Of a DNA stretch of 44,831 bases, positions 17,964 to 38,127 are shown in pieces (position 1 is the stretch's first letter; each line of letters begins with the position of its first letter). Origin of the DNA: Acidobacteriota bacterium (lineage in GTDB: Bacteria > Acidobacteriota > Terriglobia > Acidiferrales > UBA7541). The position numbers were made by a program, and so were the translations under genes. The stretch is from NCBI GenBank assembly GCA_003166795.1, contig PMUS01000067.1, positions 16,447 to 61,277 on the forward strand. Direction: 5' to 3'. The notes beneath the pieces were generated by a model. The model saw only the letters and a list, made by a program, of their open reading frames with translations. It did not search any database and was not told where the DNA came from.

Positions 17964-19356
17964 TCCCCCGGTGCCGCTGAAAGCCCACATCCTCATCATT
18001 GATGACGATGCGAACACGCTCGCGTCGCTCGCTCGCGCGTTTCGACTGGCCGGCCATGAAGCGACCGTCTGCGACAATGCTGCGCGCGCGCTGGAACTCG
18101 CGAAGGCCGAGCGCTACGACTTGATCCTCTCCGACGTGGTGATGCCCGGCCGCGATGGCATCGCGCTTCTCGAAGATCTCAAGAATATTGGCGTCGCGTC
18201 GCCCGCGGTGATGATGTCCGGGCAGGCGACCATCGAGATGGCCGTGCGCGCCACGCGGTTGGGCGCTGTGGACTTTCTCGAGAAGCCGATTTCGACCGAG
18301 AAGCTGTTGCTCACGGTGGAGAACGCCGTTCGGCTGGCGCGTCTCGAGCAGGAAAACCGCGATCTGAAGCACCGGCTGGGTCGGCATCAGATTGTGTGGG
18401 CGAGCCCCGCGATGCGCGACGTGATGGCGCAGGTGGAGCAGGTGGCCGCGAGCGAGACGCGCGTTTGCATTCGCGGCGAAACGGGCACGGGCAAGGAGCT
18501 GATCGCGCGCACGCTGCACGAAAAAAGTCCGCGGCACGGCGCGCCCTTTGTTTCGCTGAACTGCGCCGCGATTCCTGCCGAGCTTATGGAATCGGAGCTG
18601 TTCGGGCACGAGAAGGGCTCGTTTACCGGAGCCGCCGCCCGGCATATCGGAAAATTCGAGCAGGCCCATCGCGGAACGCTTTTTCTCGACGAAATCGGCG
18701 ACATGCCGATGTCCATGCAGGCGAAGCTGCTGCGTGTGCTCGAAGAGGGCGAAATCGAGCGCGTCGGCGGCGGAGGACCCTTTGCCGTGGATGTGCGCGT
18801 GGTGGTCGCGACGCACCGCAACCTCGAAGAGCAGGTTCGACAGGCATCGTTTCGCGAGGATCTTTACCATCGAGTGTTCGTGTTTCCGATCGTGCTGCCT
18901 CCGCTGCGCGAGCGCCGCGAGGATATCCGCGTGCTCGCCGAGCATTTCTCGAAACAGCTCGCGGAACAGAATCATTGGAAGCCAAAGAGCTTTTCGCTGG
19001 ATGCGCTCGCGGCGCTGGAGGCCTACTCGTGGCCCGGGAACGTGCGCGAGTTGCGCAACGTAATCGAGCGCGTGCTGCTGTACGCGACCGGCGACGCGGT
19101 GGAGGCAGCCACAATCGCACGAGCCCTGCCGCAGGGCGCGGCGCCTGGCGCCGGATCGGGGTCCGGAGCGCTCGGGGCGGGGACGCTCGCCGGGCGCGTG
19201 GAATCGTTCGAGCGCGAAACGCTGCTCGCCGAACTCAAGCGCAACCGCCATCACATGACCAACACGGCGAAGGCGCTGGGCCTCGAACGCAGCCACCTCT
19301 ACAAAAAGTGCCAGCAGCTTGGAATTGATCTGCGCGCGATCCGCCAAACGGATTAG
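17950..19356 (+). CDS. NtrC/NtrX-family sigma-54-dependent response regulator
   Basis: The 468-residue protein has a receiver domain with D62 as phosphoacceptor (LILSDVVMPG), a sigma-54 activator AAA+ domain (Walker A GETGTGKE, Walker B GTLFLDEIGD), and a Fis-type helix-turn-helix (NTAKALGLERSHLYKKCQQL). The sigma-54 contact loop reads GSFTGA instead of the commoner GAFTGA, a known natural variant. A Gly/Ala/Pro-rich linker joins the AAA+ and Fis parts. It overlaps the kinase gene by 14 nt; an alternative GTG start at 17971 would remove seven residues. It should activate sigma-54 promoters in answer to the kinase; targets are not visible in the window. Confidence 0.94.
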   Translation: MRERNPPVPLKAHILIIDDDANTLASLARAFRLAGHEATVCDNAARALELAKAERYDLILSDVVMPGRDGIALLEDLKNIGVASPAVMMSGQATIEMAVRATRLGAVDFLEKPISTEKLLLTVENAVRLARLEQENRDLKHRLGRHQIVWASPAMRDVMAQVEQVAASETRVCIRGETGTGKELIARTLHEKSPRHGAPFVSLNCAAIPAELMESELFGHEKGSFTGAAARHIGKFEQAHRGTLFLDEIGDMPMSMQAKLLRVLEEGEIERVGGGGPFAVDVRVVVATHRNLEEQVRQASFREDLYHRVFVFPIVLPPLRERREDIRVLAEHFSKQLAEQNHWKPKSFSLDALAALEAYSWPGNVRELRNVIERVLLYATGDAVEAATIARALPQGAAPGAGSGSGALGAGTLAGRVESFERETLLAELKRNRHHMTNTAKALGLERSHLYKKCQQLGIDLRAIRQTD

Positions 19357-19419
19357 GGATTCAAGCGTGGCAATCTAACTAGGTATCGAAACTCCATCTC
19401 GGCTCCCCAACCGAGAGGC

Positions 19420-19532
19420 GTCATTCCGAGGCCCGCATCTTGGGCCGAGGAATCTCTCTTCGTGTGACGCGCTCGCCCGGTCGTCAATCGACGAGAGATC
19501 CCTCGCCCGCAATTGGCGGAATCGGGATGACA
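19420..19532. repeat. inverted pair of palindromic repeats without a gene (type A)
   Basis: The left copy (19420-19462) runs GTCATTCCGAG...GAGGAATCTCTC and the right copy (19492-19532) is its near reverse complement, ending GGGATGACA. They are separated by 29 bp. Each copy has an internal stem. The same pair flanks a GIY-YIG gene at 34455-34841, so this looks like a gene-less derivative of that element. It also sits between the ends of two converging genes, where it could act as a terminator. Confidence 0.75.
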
Positions 19533-19569: not shown

Positions 19570-20220
19570 TCATGCAGTCGCTGCTGGCGTCCGTCGGAAC
19601 AGTTTCCTGAGCAGCAGATGCGTGGGTAAATAAACCACGAACGCCATAAAAAGCCAGCTGATTAGTACGTGAATCGGCGCCGGTCCCCACTGGCGGTGGA
19701 TGAAGGGATCAATAAACGCGTAGTTGATGTTTGTCGCCGGGTCAGTGAACCGCGCGGCAATGAAAAGGGGAAGCGCAATCGCGCATTGCAGCGCCCAACC
19801 GCGCCGGTCGTAGCCGGTCCGGTGCAACGCCCAAAGTAGCAGGACCGGCATCGCGACATGGAATAGCGACAGCAGCCGCACCCACAGAGGGTAGTGCGCG
19901 TCGAAAAGATAGTCCGCTCCGCCTAAGAGAGCTCGCCCGCGAAAGAGCCGCCAGATCGCATCGAGCGCCCAGGATGCATCCACGAGAAGAGACGAAACCG
20001 CCTGGCTTGAAATCAGAAGCGCGCTGTTGGTCCACACCCCAACGCATGTCAGGATCACCGCGATGTCGCAAAGGTGCAGGAAATTTGCCGTGCCCCACGT
20101 CCGCCAATAGGCTGGAATCCAGATCGCGAGCCAGAAGAGCACGGTCCATCGAATCCACGCGGGAAATTTGGTCGGCGATGGCGGAGGCGTGGCCATTTTT
20201 TCAGAGATTTCCGCGGCCAT
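19570..20220 (-). CDS. polytopic membrane protein of unknown function
   Basis: The 216 residues contain about six hydrophobic segments (WTVLFWLAIWIPAYW, FLHLCDIAVILTCVGVW, ALLISSQAVSSLLV, LSLFHVAMPVLLLWALH, ALQCAIALPLFIAARF, VLISWLFMAFVVYLPTHLLL), with little hydrophilic sequence beyond short loops. Conserved-looking residues are Trp, His and Asp in TANFLHLCD and INYAFIDPFIHRQWGP, which suggest a family of integral membrane proteins rather than a chance ORF. I cannot name the family. The start is taken at 20220; MATPPPSPTKFP, eight codons later, is an alternative. It is divergent from the polysaccharide deacetylase and convergent with the NtrC-like regulator. Confidence 0.7.
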   Translation of the reverse strand: MAAEISEKMATPPPSPTKFPAWIRWTVLFWLAIWIPAYWRTWGTANFLHLCDIAVILTCVGVWTNSALLISSQAVSSLLVDASWALDAIWRLFRGRALLGGADYLFDAHYPLWVRLLSLFHVAMPVLLLWALHRTGYDRRGWALQCAIALPLFIAARFTDPATNINYAFIDPFIHRQWGPAPIHVLISWLFMAFVVYLPTHLLLRKLFRRTPAATA

Positions 20221-33119: not shown

Positions 33120-34367
33120 CTGAACGAGTCCCCCGCAGGTCGCGCGACGCTCGCGCTCGAGGACGGAAGAGTATTTAACGGTCGTGCGGCGGGCGCTCGC
33201 ATCCGTCGTGGCGGCGAAGTCGTTTTTAATACCAGCCTCACTGGTTATCAGGAAGTATTCACCGATCCCAGCTACTCCGGTCAGATCGTCTGCCTGACCT
33301 ATCCCCACATCGGAAACGTGGGCACCAACCTCGATGATGAGGAATCCGGGAAGCCCTACATCGAAGGGCTGATCGTCCGCGAATTCTCGGCGCTCGCTTC
33401 CAACTGGCGCTCCAGCGAAACCGCGCAGGCTTATCTCGAGCGTCACGGCGTCCCGGTCATTGGAGACATTGATACGCGCGCGCTCGTGCGCCATCTGCGG
33501 GAAGTCGGCGCGCTGCGTGGCATCCTTTCGACCGATGACACACCCGCCGATCAGTTGATCGCGGAGGCTCGCGCGCTCCCGACGATGGCGGGCCTGGAAC
33601 TCGCCGGCCGCGTCACCACCGCGAAAAAATACGAATGGACGAAGGGCTCGATTGAGCTCACCGCACCGATTGCCCACGCAGCCGTGGCTTCGAAAGGGAA
33701 CGGTGTACCCGCGGGCGCGGGTAGTTTGGGGACTCGGAGCTTCGCCTCCGAAAGATCCGCCCAGGTGAAGAAAGGTGCTTTAGCGCCTGAGGAACGCCGC
33801 CATCGCGTCGTCGCCTATGATTTCGGCATCAAGCAGAATATCCTGCGGCTCCTGGTAGATTATGGCTGCGACGTTACCGTCGTTCCGGCGAGGACCTCCG
33901 CCGAAGACATTCTCGCGCACAAGCCGAACGGTGTCTTTCTCTCGAATGGGCCGGGCGATCCCGAGCCGGTCACGTACGCCGTCGCGAATATCAAGAAACT
34001 CCTCGGCCGCGTGCCAATCTTCGGCATCTGCCTCGGCCATCAACTCTGCGGCTTGGCTCTCGGCGGCAAGACATTCAAATTGAAATTCGGCCATCATGGC
34101 TCGAATCACCCGGTGAAGAATCTGCGCACGCAAAAAGTCGAAATCACCGCCCAGAATCACGGTTTCTGCGTGGACCCGGAATCGCTCCCATCGAGCGATG
34201 TCGAGGTCACGCACGTGAACCTCAACGATCACACTAACGAAGGCATGCGCCATCGCTCGCTTCCGCTTTTCAGCGTCCAGTATCATCCCGAGGCCTCGCC
34301 CGGCCCGCACGACGCCCGCTACCTGTTTGACGATTTCATCGCGATGATGAAGGACGCCGCGCGATGA
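33120..34367 (+). CDS. carA: carbamoyl-phosphate synthase small (glutaminase) subunit, CTG start
   Basis: The reading frame is open from the lepB stop, and the conserved N-terminal domain ([33 protein letters not shown]) begins right after CTG 33120, which has GGAGG five bases upstream. No ATG, GTG or TTG lies in frame before GTG 33318, which would delete ~66 conserved residues, so CTG is the likely start. The 415-residue protein keeps the class I glutaminase triad: Cys in FGICLGHQL, and His and Glu in [11 protein letters not shown]. It supplies ammonia from glutamine to CarB for arginine and pyrimidine synthesis. The linker between its two domains is about 33 residues longer than in E. coli (33706-33788, see the hairpin insertion). 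carB follows after a 505 bp insertion. Confidence 0.93.
33706..33788. repeat. in-frame hairpin-rich insertion inside carA
   Basis: Three hairpins follow one another within the coding sequence: TACCCG...CGGGTA (33706-33723), TCGGAG...CTCCGA (33734-33751) and AGGTGC...GCGCCT (33773-33788, one G-U pair). They encode the extra ~33 residues in the linker before VVAYDFG. The segment is probably a repeat that has been inserted and kept the frame. Confidence 0.6.
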
Positions 34368-34454
34368 GGAGTGAGGGGGGTGGACGCGCAGCAGAGTCGT
34401 TGACAAAGCCGGCGCCAATACTGCGCCCAACCCAGAAGCCAAAAATAGGCAACC

Positions 34455-34841
34455 TGTCATTCCGAGCCCGTTTTCGCGGGCGAGGAATCTGCTCTTGATA
34501 TGGAACGCCACTACTACATGTATATGATGGCCAGCCTTTCCCGACGGCTTTATGTGGGCGTGACCAATAATCTGTTACGCCGCACCCGAGAGCACGGGGA
34601 GGGACAGATTCCCGGTTTCACGACGCGATACCGTATCCATCGCCTAGTTTATTTCGAGCGCTTTCAATACGTCCGTTCGGCCATTTCCAGGGAAAAGCAG
34701 GTAAAGGGATGGCGACGCTCCCGAAAGGTGTCTTTGATCGAGGCCCAAAACCCCACGTGGGCAGACCTGTCAGAAAGTTGGAAGCCTGCGACCACCGAGC
34801 ATGAGCAGATCCCTCGCCCAAACAGCGGGCTCGGGATGACA
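34455..34841. mobile_element. palindromic repeat pair enclosing a GIY-YIG nuclease gene (type A element)
   Basis: The left repeat (34455-34494) reads TGTCATTCCGAGCCCG...GAGGAATCTGCTC and the right one (34803-34841) is its reverse complement with few differences, so the two ends are inverted. Each can also fold on itself through GCCCG/CGGGC. The space between them holds only the GIY-YIG gene. It sits between carA and carB, normally adjacent. The same repeats occur without the gene at 19420-19532. No target duplication was found. A nuclease-linked mobile or repeat-spreading unit is an inference. Confidence 0.6.
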
Positions 34842-34871
34842 AGTGAGAGGCCCGGAGCGCCCCGTCAATAG
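34500..34871 (+). CDS. GIY-YIG nuclease superfamily protein
   Basis: The 123-residue protein begins with [12 protein letters not shown] and has the paired strands of a GIY-YIG domain, with the motif written as YYMYMM...LYVGVTNNL, then the conserved arginine in [11 protein letters not shown] and [16 protein letters not shown], and glutamate/lysine in [11 protein letters not shown]. It is a minimal stand-alone domain (UvrC/YhbQ-like) with no other DNA-binding part. The start codon lies five bases after the left repeat, and the last ~25 residues are encoded by the right repeat, which means the repeat is part of the gene. It lies between carA and carB on the same strand. Its likely job is single-strand cleavage of DNA, possibly linked to the flanking palindromes. 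Confidence 0.85.
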
Positions 34872-34872
34872 A

Positions 34873-37800
34873 ATGCCGAAACGCACAGACATCAAGAAAA
34901 TTCTGATCATCGGCTCCGGCCCGATCGTCATCGGACAGGCGTGCGAGTTCGACTATTCCGGCACGCAGGCCTGCAAAGCACTGCGCTCCGAGGGCTACGA
35001 AGTCATCCTCGTCAATTCCAATCCCGCGACGATCATGACCGACCCAGAAATCGCGGACCGCACCTATATCGAGCCGCTTGCGAAGGAATATCTCGAAGCC
35101 ATCATCGCCGCCGAGCGGCCCGACGCGCTGCTCCCAACCGTGGGCGGCCAGACCGGCCTGAATCTCGCTGTCGAGCTGGCCGAAGCCGGCATCCTCGAAA
35201 AATACGGCGTCAAACTCATCGGCGCTTCGCTCCGCGCCATAAAAATCGCCGAGGATCGCCTGCTCTTCAAGGACGCCTGCCGCAGGATTGGTCTCGAGGT
35301 TCCGGCATCCGCCGTGGTCAACGAAATTCCCGAGGCCATCAAGCTCGCCGATGAGCTGGGCTATCCCGTGGTCATCCGCCCGTCGTTCACGCTCGGCGGC
35401 ACCGGCGGTTCGATTGCCTACAACCGCGAGGAATTCGCCGATTCTATCGCCCGCGCGCTCGACGCGAGCCCGGTCCGTCAGGCGCTGATCGAGGAGTCCG
35501 TCATTGGCTGGAAGGAATTCGAGCTCGAGGTGATGCGCGATCATCGCGACAATTTTGTCGTCATCTGCTCGATTGAGAATGTGGACCCCATGGGCATCCA
35601 CACCGGCGATTCGATCACCGTCGCTCCCGCGCAAACGCTCACGGACAAGGAATATCAGCGCATGCGCGACGCGGCTGCCGCGATCATTCGCGAAGTCGGC
35701 GTCGAGACGGGCGGCTCGAACATCCAGTTCGGCATTGATCCCGAAACCGGCCGCATGGTCGTGATCGAAATGAATCCGCGCGTCTCGCGCAGTTCCGCGC
35801 TCGCCAGCAAGGCCACCGGTTTTCCGATCGCGAAAATCGCCGCCAAGCTCGCCGTCGGCATGACCCTCGACGAGATTCCCAACGACATCACCCGCAAGAC
35901 GCCTTCGTGCTTTGAGCCGAGCATTGATTACGTCGTCGCCAAGATCCCCAAGTTTCAGTTCGAGAAATTCCCCGGCAGCGAAACTACGCTCACCACGCAG
36001 ATGAAGTCTGTCGGCGAGGTGATGGCCATCGGCCGCACGTTTCAGGAATCGCTCTGCAAGGCCATCCGCTCCCTCGAGCCCAGCACCGCCTGGCGCGCTC
36101 CGGCCGAGGTCACCACCGCGCTTTTGCGCGAAAAGCTCCATGTCCCCGGCCCCGACCGCATCCACTGGCTCTTTGAGGCGCTCGAGCGCGGGATGTCGCG
36201 CGACGAGGTTTGCTCGCTCACCAAAATCGATCCGTGGTTCATTCGCCAGATGGAGGACATGGTCGCGCTCGACCGCCGCGTGGCCGCAAGTTCGTTGCGT
36301 GGCATTTCGCGCGAGCTGCTTCTGGAATCGAAGCGCTCCGGCGCCAGCGACGAAGAGCTGGCCAAATTGTGGAATGTGAAGTCCGCGTCCGTGCGCGCCC
36401 GCCGTCACGAACTCGGCGTGATCCCGGTTTTCAAGCGCGTGGACACCTGCGCCGCCGAATTCGAATCCTTCACGCCGTATCTCTATTCGACGTACGAGGA
36501 AGAAGACGAATCCGGCGCCATGGATCGCCCCAAGGTCGTCATCCTCGGCAGCGGCCCCAGCCGCATCGGGCAGGGAATCGAATTCGATTATTGCTGCTGC
36601 CACGCGGCTCTAGCTCTCAAGGAAGACGGTTACGAGACCGTCATGATCAATTGCAACCCCGAAACCGTCTCGACGGATTACGACACCTCCGATCGCCTCT
36701 ATTTCGAGCCGCTCACTCTCGAAGACGTCCTCGCGGTTCTCGAGCGTGAAAAACCGCAGGGCGTGATCGTGCAATTCGGCGGGCAGACCCCCTTGAACCT
36801 TGCGCTCGAGCTAAAGCGCAACCACGCGAAGATCATCGGCACTGACCCCGAATCAATTGATCTCGCGGAAGATCGCCGCCGCTTCGGTGCGCTCCTCGCG
36901 GAGCTGAATATCCCGCAGCCGCGCGGAGGCACAGCGCTAGCGCCGCAGGAAGCCGTCGCCACCGCGGCCGAGATCGGCCTGCCGGTTCTCGTCCGGCCGA
37001 GTTACGTTCTCGGCGGCCGCGCCATGGTGATCGCGTACGATTTGAAAACCGTCGAGGAATATGTCGCGCAGGCGGCGCAGATCGGTTCAGGTACCGACCC
37101 CAAGCGCCCGATCCTGATTGACCAGTTTCTCGAAGACGCCACCGAAGTTGACGTGGACGCTCTCGCCGATGGCGAAGATGTCGTCATCGGCGGCATCATG
37201 GAGCACATCGAGGAAGCCGGCATCCACTCCGGCGACTCTTCCTGCGTTCTCCCCTCGGTCTCGCTCAAGCCCGAGGTCCTCGCGCGCATTCGCGACTACA
37301 CCGTCCGTCTCGCCCGCGCCCTTCACGTCGTCGGCTTGATGAACGTGCAGTACGCTATCCAGCACGACACGGTGTACGTGCTCGAAGTGAATCCGCGAGC
37401 CTCGCGCACGATTCCGTACGTTAGCAAAGCCACCGGTGTCCCGCTCGCGAAAGTCGCCGCGCGCCTGATGACCGGCCGCAAGCTCAAGGATCTGCATCTC
37501 CCAGTCGTGGACATGAACGGTGTGAAGGAACTCGCCGTCCACGATTTCTACGCCGTGAAGTCGCCCGTGTTTCCGTTCAATAAATTCCGCGGCGTGGATA
37601 CGATCCTCGGCCCCGAGATGCGCTCCACCGGCGAAGTCATGGGCATCTCTTCGACGTTCGGCCTCGCGTTCGCCAAGGCGCAACTCGCCGCCGGCCAGCG
37701 CCTGCCGCTCTCGGGAGTCGTTTTTATCAGCGTTAACGACCATGACAAGCGCCACGTCGCCGCCATTGCCAAGGATTTGGCTGCAGTCGGCTTGAAAATT

Positions 37801-38127
37801 ACCGCAACGCGCGGCACTGCCGCGGCTCTCACGCGCGCGGGCGTTGAAATCGAAGCGGTGTATAAAGTGAATGAAGGCAGGCCGAATATCGTGGACCTGA
37901 TCAAGACCGGCAAAGTGAATCTGGTCATCAACACGCCGCTCGGCCGCGAGTCCTTCTACGACGAAAAATCCATTCGCCGCGCCGCCGTCCGTTACAACGT
38001 TCCCTGCATCACCACTTTATCCGCGGCAAGCGCCGCCGCCCGCGGCATTCGCGCCATGGCCGGCCACGCGCCCGACGTCGCCGCGCTTCAGGATCTCCAC
38101 CGCCGCAAATCCACCGCCGCCACCTGA
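34873..38127 (+). CDS. carB: carbamoyl-phosphate synthase large subunit
   Basis: Starting at ATG 34873 ([23 protein letters not shown]), the 1084 residues cover the full protein: two ATP-grasp halves ([14 protein letters not shown]...GNNIQ-like [27 protein letters not shown], then [17 protein letters not shown]...[17 protein letters not shown]), an oligomerisation region between them and a C-terminal MGS-like allosteric domain ([24 protein letters not shown]). It makes carbamoyl phosphate from bicarbonate, ATP and ammonia passed from CarA. An upstream in-frame ATG-like start would add 10 residues from the GIY-YIG/repeat region and is unlikely. No good Shine-Dalgarno is present, which may reflect the insertion between carA and carB. 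Confidence 0.96.

Follow-up and report, generated by a model that had tools for sequence, protein, structure and literature searches.

The window considered here, a 44,831-nucleotide stretch of an Acidobacteriota contig taken as a whole, holds two plus-strand open reading frames that we take to be carA (small subunit of carbamoyl phosphate synthase; its 3' part is listed as the reading frame 33318-34367, with the stop codon at 34365-34367) and carB (large subunit; 34873-38127, with its start ATG at 34873). From the carA stop to the carB start there are 505 bp, and this interval is occupied by a plus-strand gene for a GIY-YIG nuclease of 123 amino acids (34500-34871; Pfam PF01541, E 2e-12) together with two tagged hairpins of the REP kind, recognised from their sequence and from folding as single-stranded DNA. 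The left hairpin lies at 34455-34494 on the plus strand and the right one, inverted and of the same subtype (both carry the tail CTGCTC), at 34803-34841 on the minus strand. A preliminary description of this DNA had placed a GIY-YIG gene between inverted repeats at these positions, and both the sequence and the Pfam match bear this out. The right hairpin lies inside the nuclease reading frame; the proposal that it encodes the C-terminus of the protein holds for part of that C-terminus.

In the left hairpin, a TGTC tag (34455-34458) is followed by an outer stem of 5 bp (ATTCC at 34459-34463 against GGAAT at 34484-34488), a GA on either side (34464-34465 and 34482-34483), an inner stem-loop with a 6-bp inner stem (34466-34481) and the tail CTGCTC (34489-34494). 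The right hairpin shares every element of this plan, including the five outer pairs starting with AT and the GA/GA internal loop. The two had been called near-identical, which is right as to plan but slightly too strong as wording, since they are unlike in their loops and, by paired substitutions, in their stems. Folding the repeats as single-stranded DNA confirms that each can form its own stem: the left hairpin folds at -9.3 kcal/mol (z -2.49, with 1 of 200 shuffles equal or better) and the right at -7.7 kcal/mol (z -1.91, 13 of 200), and in both folds the TGTC tag stays unpaired. An RNA family was set aside as an identity for the element, the two matches that Rfam gave over 34300-35000 being below threshold and off the hairpins. 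The window also holds a second pair of tagged hairpins, at 19419-19453 (plus strand) and 19498-19532 (minus strand), which form a gene-less head-to-head dimer with a 44-bp spacer. These belong to the CTCTCTTCG-tail subtype, as found beside the genome's other family nuclease (locus L002), and the pair is flanked by a response-regulator-like gene that ends at 19356 and by a convergent open reading frame (19570-20220, minus strand).

Beyond the window, the 13-mer with which the repeat starts, TGTCATYCYGAGC, occurs 43 times in the 3.9-Mb genome and its reversed control not at all, so the window repeats are not a matter of chance. Closure into the GA hairpin is seen at 16 of 30 such sites that were fetched; most of the rest are a second repeat type with the same start, and the others are degraded copies or copies cut by a contig end. 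This second type (L007, L013, L019, L021 and L023) has a start like TGTCATTCTGAGCGGAGTGACCGGAC and continues to CCCGCTCTTGCGG, so that the start is common to both types and the closing stem is different; we found no nuclease tied to it in the window's genome. The dispersed family as a whole keeps the plan seen at carA-carB, with an unpaired TGTC tag, a stem initiated by AT, usually a GA/GA internal loop, and stems that covary around that loop. Among 216 distinct hairpins near family nuclease genes, picked by tag and outer stem only and with no requirement for GA, 163 carry GA on each side of that loop.

We quantify the conservation of the fold on an alignment of 58 distinct copies of one length. 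Pair cells are intact in 94.3% of cases against 79.1% in shuffles, cells changed on both sides number 77 against 21.4, and the covariation score is 0.516 against 0.205; for each of the three, 0 of 500 shuffles was as high. Two cruder measures are less decisive, with 5 pairs showing change on both sides against 3.8 (86 of 500 shuffles as high) and 13 further pair types against 10.2 (11 of 500), and shifting the partner by 1-3 columns lowers all five. The first stem pairs, which are AT, are intact in 48 of 58 copies (columns 4-24) and in 58 of 58 (columns 5-23), where row selection had fixed the pair ends. Both window hairpins have the AT stem start, and copies from Novosphingobium and Sphingobium start with GC or AC. 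The loop is of the GNA form in 43 of the 58 copies. A tandem G.A step and the GCGNAGC minihairpin are both unusually stable in DNA. The tandem-GA hairpin hints that what is recognised is a fold of the DNA and not its sequence. Several alpha-, beta- and gammaproteobacterial copies have a perfect stem instead (for example CGTCATCCTCGGGCTTGACCCGAGGATCCA), with 8-9 bp and a loop of 4-5, where the GA types have 5 bp, GA/GA and then a second stem. Tails in the flanks of family genes vary (CTC 53, CTG 46, CCC 29, CTA 17, CTT 16 and CCA 15 of the 216), and the CCA tail is found at several plasmid loci. Some hairpins in the flanks of L040, L042 and L156 have an inner GGAG...CGAC, which would put a second tandem GA step inside the first.

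The protein encoded between the hairpins carries the conserved residues of its family, Y8, Y18, G20, R28, H32, E65 and N84. Across 66 sequences, Y18, R28, E65 and N84 are invariant and Y8 nearly so; Tyr, Tyr, Arg, Glu and Asn are the conserved residues with catalytic roles in GIY-YIG enzymes. Pfam finds GIY-YIG in all 66 members and T5orf172 in 10, with no HUH match. A profile built from the 66 matches BH0048 and EF2693 (UPF0213/COG2827; PDB 1zg2 and 1ywl) at E 2.9e-11 and 2e-7, and these are the nearest solved relatives by sequence. The predicted fold (pLDDT 85.5) is likewise nearest to 1zg2 (UPF0213, E 1.9e-4), with the branched-DNA nuclease Slx1 next (E 0.011); we take structure prediction and fold search as support for family membership only. 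On a tree, the family and the weaker GIY-YIG genes of the same genomes are parted by a single change. Scanning the family alignment against NCBIfam gave one weak match and scanning two members against PHROGs gave none, and in the records such genes carry no more specific annotation than 'GIY-YIG nuclease family protein' or 'excinuclease ABC subunit C'.

How general is the arrangement? In 67 genomes of the window's order we read 44 loci of close homologues (E < 1e-20) with their flanks, and 42 have a tagged hairpin within 200 bp of the gene, 32 of them on both sides. The wider set, made up of the best 80 of at least 577 confirmed homologues from a scan of species genomes (21 named phyla, with five loci unplaced), gives 70 of 80, with 46 on both sides. 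For plasmids, 18 regions were read from 32 records; the 12 in the flanking count give 11 with a hairpin and 9 with one on both sides, and of the six further regions five are flanked on both sides and one (L258) is without a hairpin. The same distance applied to other genes gives 2 of 28 for weaker GIY-YIG genes (the top 28 of 44 weaker matches) and 0 of 30 for Y1_Tnp genes (the best gene from 30 of the 55 order genomes with one), with none flanked on both sides. Reversed sequence gives 0 of 136 for the family, 1 of 28 and 2 of 30 for the two controls, and windows 800-1000 bp off the gene contain a hairpin at 2 of 44 and 2 of 80 loci. These figures are the union of our detectors, of which the perfect-stem one works without the AT-start requirement; a first strict detector missed the perfect-stem types, and a stricter combined one still gives 84 of 136 for the family against 1 of 58 for the controls. 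One locus (L147) is on the same contig as another (L048), which reduces the 124 loci of the order and wider sets to 123, and two fragments of a broken gene (G048:C369) were left out.

Flanking is therefore not a trait of GIY-YIG genes in general, given the 2 of 28 among weaker relatives, and Y1_Tnp transposases (the RAYT/IS200 superfamily) are ruled out as partner of the tagged repeats by the 0 of 30. Homologous GIY-YIG genes that lack the repeats had been named as evidence against a link; these exist among the other GIY-YIG genes, which the tree places outside the family, and at the 13 of 136 family loci with no hairpin within 200 bp, and the remaining family loci do have the repeats. Orientation is less uniform than presence, with tags pointing outward at 42 of 73 two-sided loci and the others arranged differently.

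The carA-carB junction can be followed through relatives. Tagged hairpins are present at 6 of 6 carA-carB loci with a nuclease gene and at 1 of 24 without, the 24 including 3 where no carA is seen beside carB; one more genome (G032) has a seventh such unit, by synteny. A gap conserved in all relatives, with no empty sites, had been named as grounds for rejecting insertion, and this is not what we find: element-free junctions occur in relatives, and one genome (G060) has a lone hairpin there. In another (G052), a 3' remnant of the nuclease gene is flanked by a second and a third hairpin. The preliminary description gave the 505-bp gap correctly; its premise that the two genes are normally adjacent does not hold in the order, where gaps without an element run from about 7 to more than 1,000 bp. 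For this reason the gap alone is weak evidence, and we dropped it as proof of insertion. A single ancestral insertion at this site is perhaps not the best reading of the seven loci, since on the family tree, built from a short protein, the carA-carB location needs 4 changes.

The start of carB shows some peculiarities of its own. A truncated copy of the carB 5' end lies directly upstream of the left hairpin in L239 (900-1041; genome G039) and in L226 (955-1026; G001), and G002 retains about 17 bp of an extra carB 5' end. G061, which has no nuclease unit at this site, has a truncated carB 5' copy followed by another insert. Counting the carA-carB gaps of L228 and L215, extra 5' ends are present in three genomes with the nuclease unit and in this one with a different insert, and they give the impression that the start of carB has been hit by insertions more than once. 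The codons for IVIG in carB read [CT]GTCATCGG, like the repeat tag, in the window and in relatives such as G001, and this likeness may make carB a target.

Genomes with two or three family genes permit a fair comparison of repeat subtype with nuclease. The repeats flanking each gene were set against those beside its nearest protein relative elsewhere and against those beside the paralogues of its own genome; for 24 of 25 paralogues from 10 genomes the match to the relative in the other genome was the closer one (Wilcoxon p 1.8e-5, over rows that are not independent). Subtype features were available for 41 of the 44 order loci. Many copies occupy syntenic sites, where they have been inherited in place; synteny was judged on 20 pairs from the available flanks, with five reciprocal rows excluded. 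Where the nearest relative is at a non-syntenic site, 10 of 10 rows agree, one of them marginally (0.61 against 0.60). The window's genome itself illustrates the pattern, its carA-carB copy having CTGCTC tails like the relative in G052 and its second copy (L002) having CTCTCTTCG tails like the relative in G061, both of these pairs being syntenic. Repeat subtype thus tracks the nuclease and not the genome.

The ends of similarity between copies give a complementary view of the unit. Among 145 pairs of non-syntenic copies, most whole-gene DNA alignments end inside the unit, and both hairpins are spanned in 9. Counting from the nearer hairpin end of the two copies, alignments that reach a hairpin stop no more than 5 bp from the hairpin's outer end in one copy in 18 of 22 cases on the left and 22 of 29 on the right, and continue past the hairpin in 4 of 22 and 7 of 29. 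On pSymB of Sinorhizobium meliloti (L246, 1660-1820), a 3' nuclease remnant is enclosed by two CGTC hairpins next to a complete copy of the gene, and seems to have arisen by deletion.

Next we consider whether genomes with the nuclease hold more repeats, counted as 12-mer starts and not as closed hairpins. Within the order, the 28 genomes with the family have 10.5 starts per Mb and the 39 without have 3.8 (p 8.6e-5). The presence of Y1_Tnp also tracks repeat density in the order (7.5 against 2.75 per Mb, p 9e-4), and for that reason co-occurrence alone is not specific; among Y1_Tnp-bearing genomes the nuclease effect nevertheless persists (12.3 against 4.9 per Mb). Over 298 Acidobacteriota genomes, at least 20 copies of the 12-mer are found in 27 of 36 nuclease-bearing and 11 of 262 other genomes (Fisher p 4.5e-22), a comparison in which the cut-off of 20 was picked after viewing the table, counts were read by eye and lineages are not independent. 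The association is present within the class (23 of 26 with the nuclease against 7 of 15 without, p 0.008) and outside it (4 of 10 against 4 of 247, p 8e-5).

The exceptions go in both directions. Two genomes counted as nuclease-free in this table (G324 and G295) each gave a family match in a later profile search, with hairpins on both sides in G324 (412 copies) and no hairpin nearby in G295. That search (E 1e-5) found no nuclease in the repeat-rich genomes G145, G263, G157, G220, G373, G361, G100 and G266, nor in G062, G054 and G066 of the window's order, and gave no more than weak matches in G180 and G045. Repeats can thus persist without the nuclease, as in G145 and G263 and several others; these two belong to one genus, hold 432 and 44 repeat starts with no detectable family nuclease, and may have either a different partner or a nuclease since lost. 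Conversely, among the nuclease genomes with few copies that we examined, G179, G342, G108 and G081 have other tagged types within 400 bp of a family gene, and G272 and G306, like G295, have no hairpin near it. At one further locus (L263), two hairpins lie 72 and 117 bp past one end of the family match.

The repeats resemble a class that is already described. As described by Di Nocera, De Gregorio and Rocco (2013; PMC3733652), CGTC-tagged REPs have an unpaired CGTC or TGTC tag at one end, AT first pairs, a short tail, a dispersed distribution and frequent head-to-head dimers, all as in our repeats. The class also includes CCTC among its tags; its stems are of 8-9 bp with loops of 4-5, a form shown here by the alpha-, beta- and gammaproteobacterial types, and its tails are mostly CCA, the tail of 15 of our 216 hairpins. 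The authors of PMC3733652 state that CGTC/TGTC-tagged REPs "apparently lack a dedicated transposase" and that in CGTC species no tyrosine transposase gene is flanked by CGTC REPs; our repeats share this absence from tyrosine transposase flanks (0 of 30 Y1_Tnp loci), but here a nuclease is tied to them. They differ further in that many have a GA/GA internal loop, which we did not meet in that description as far as it is drawn on here, and in range, our loci coming from 21 named phyla against the five listed by those authors. Species named there as carrying CGTC repeats can be checked directly. In Azospirillum lipoferum and S. meliloti the nuclease gene stands between CGTCAT palindromes (in S. 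meliloti, tag and stem of the nearer right-hand copy are separated by one extra base), and in Novosphingobium aromaticivorans between CGTC-tagged palindromes whose stem starts with GC. A family sequence in Neisseria gonorrhoeae, unannotated in its record and with a start that seems out of frame, lies inside an array of CGTCATTCCC palindromes; the authors equate Neisseria CGTC-1 with dRS3 and place Rickettsia RPE-4 and RPE-6 in CGTC families. The question of what moves CGTC REPs is the one with which that paper closes.

The other obvious comparison is with RAYT (TnpA-REP) systems, their REPtrons and REPINs. The likeness is close, with a small nuclease gene bordered by REPs, matched subtypes, and gene-less REP pairs elsewhere in the genome, but RAYTs are HUH tyrosine enzymes acting with REPs tagged GTAG, whereas the protein here is GIY-YIG, with no HUH (Y1) match in Pfam, and its flanking repeats are tagged TGTC or CGTC. 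Free-standing GIY-YIG homing endonucleases share the catalytic domain and the intergenic position of the gene; the family gene here differs in being bordered by dispersed palindromes. The weaker GIY-YIG relatives of the same genomes differ too, standing apart on the tree and being mostly without hairpins. The suggestion that GIY-YIG-linked palindromic repeats form a parallel to RAYT/REP is thus supported by flanking, by the paralogue subtype match, by the unit ends and by co-occurrence. Our search of the open-access literature, with subscription papers and preprints outside its scope, found no report linking GIY-YIG proteins to REPs. The nuclease-repeat system is real and general, and is of the REP kind with an unrelated class of enzyme, unreported in the open-access literature searched.

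These observations lead us to infer that a second REP system exists, in which a GIY-YIG nuclease takes the place of the HUH one. Our preferred reading, which we consider probable, is that the hairpin-nuclease-hairpin unit is the gene-bearing form of CGTC/TGTC-tagged REPs and that this superfamily has its dedicated enzyme in the small GIY-YIG protein, which would nick the fold and leave host repair to copy it. Wherever DNA becomes single-stranded (on the lagging strand, in repair or in a transcription bubble), a REP would fold to its hairpin, typically a tandem G.A step beneath a GNA-type minihairpin. The cognate nuclease would recognise the fold of its own subtype and nick it at the unpaired TGTC tag or close by. 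Because enzymes of the GIY-YIG class cut DNA by hydrolysis and have no rejoining step, it would fall to host repair to copy the REP, the REP pair or the whole unit into a new site, which resembles homing more than cut-and-paste. Gene-less pairs would result where two REPs lose the gene that separated them. We are more confident that the nuclease works as the functional partner of the REPs than that it moves them. In its broadest form, the proposal would be that there are two independent REP systems, one GTAG/HUH and one CGTC/TGTC, the latter taking in dRS3 and the Rickettsia RPE types (by published assignment) and the tandem-GA hairpins, and driven by nucleases of about 95 residues that read the folded single-stranded hairpin and spread it by nick and host repair. 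We regard this broad form as evenly balanced between true and false.

The same data can be read differently, and the most serious competitor is that the nuclease is a homing parasite that cuts REPs or REP pairs made by something else, its gene being copied in by repair with the REPs as landing sites. A good part of our evidence fits this reading too: homing endonucleases are found among GIY-YIG enzymes, the subtype match and the unit ends fit as well, and repeat-rich genomes without the nuclease exist. Insertion into REPs also has a parallel in other bacteria, where some insertion sequences lie inside them, as for ISPpu9 (PMC8450116). Yet where hairpins are found on both sides each is complete, and not one hairpin split by the gene, and we found no other dedicated enzyme that might make the repeats (among transposases we examined the Y1_Tnp class, 0 of 30 flanked, and the portions of PMC3733652 drawn on here name none). 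Repeat copy number also rises with the presence of the nuclease, though homing could favour repeat-rich genomes. On balance we judge a homing origin unlikely.

It is a good deal less probable that the family is a structure-specific nuclease of DNA repair, now domesticated, whose role is to trim stalled forks or the hairpins of REPs, with the adjacent REPs regulating or terminating its gene. The predicted fold, with UPF0213 (1zg2) and the branched-DNA nuclease Slx1 as its nearest matches, and the syntenic residence of several pairs would suit such a role, as would the discussion of Caulobacter COG2827 genes as repair genes, one with an SOS box (PMC1839093). But regulation leaves unexplained why subtypes match at unrelated sites, why a genome has several diverged copies with different subtypes, and why similarity ends at the hairpins. 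Mere coincidence, or an intergenic niche shared by REPs and small mobile genes, we regard as very improbable. REPs are mostly intergenic (PMC3733652), and co-occurrence is partly common to Y1_Tnp in the order; against this, the same test on other GIY-YIG and Y1_Tnp genes of the same order gave 2 of 28 and 0 of 30, hairpins at carA-carB go with the gene (6 of 6 against 1 of 24), and the paralogue subtype match contradicts a shared niche as well.

CGTC-tagged repeats are widespread short bacterial repeats, and a named nuclease family makes the question of their mover directly testable: matched repeat subtypes can serve at once as substrates and mismatched ones as controls. The family is the leading candidate for the enzyme so far missing from a common class of repeats of unexplained spread. 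If the preferred reading, of a dedicated GIY-YIG enzyme for these REPs, is true, REP systems evolved on two occasions with enzymes that are unrelated, and genes known only by the generic annotations given above gain a function. The neighbourhoods of two plasmid copies may be recorded here: on a Planktothrix agardhii plasmid (L247) the nuclease unit lies between an MmeI-type restriction gene and drmA of DISARM, and on plasmid p3 of A. lipoferum (L245) it splits the suf operon between sufB and sufC, much as the unit in the window stands between carA and carB.
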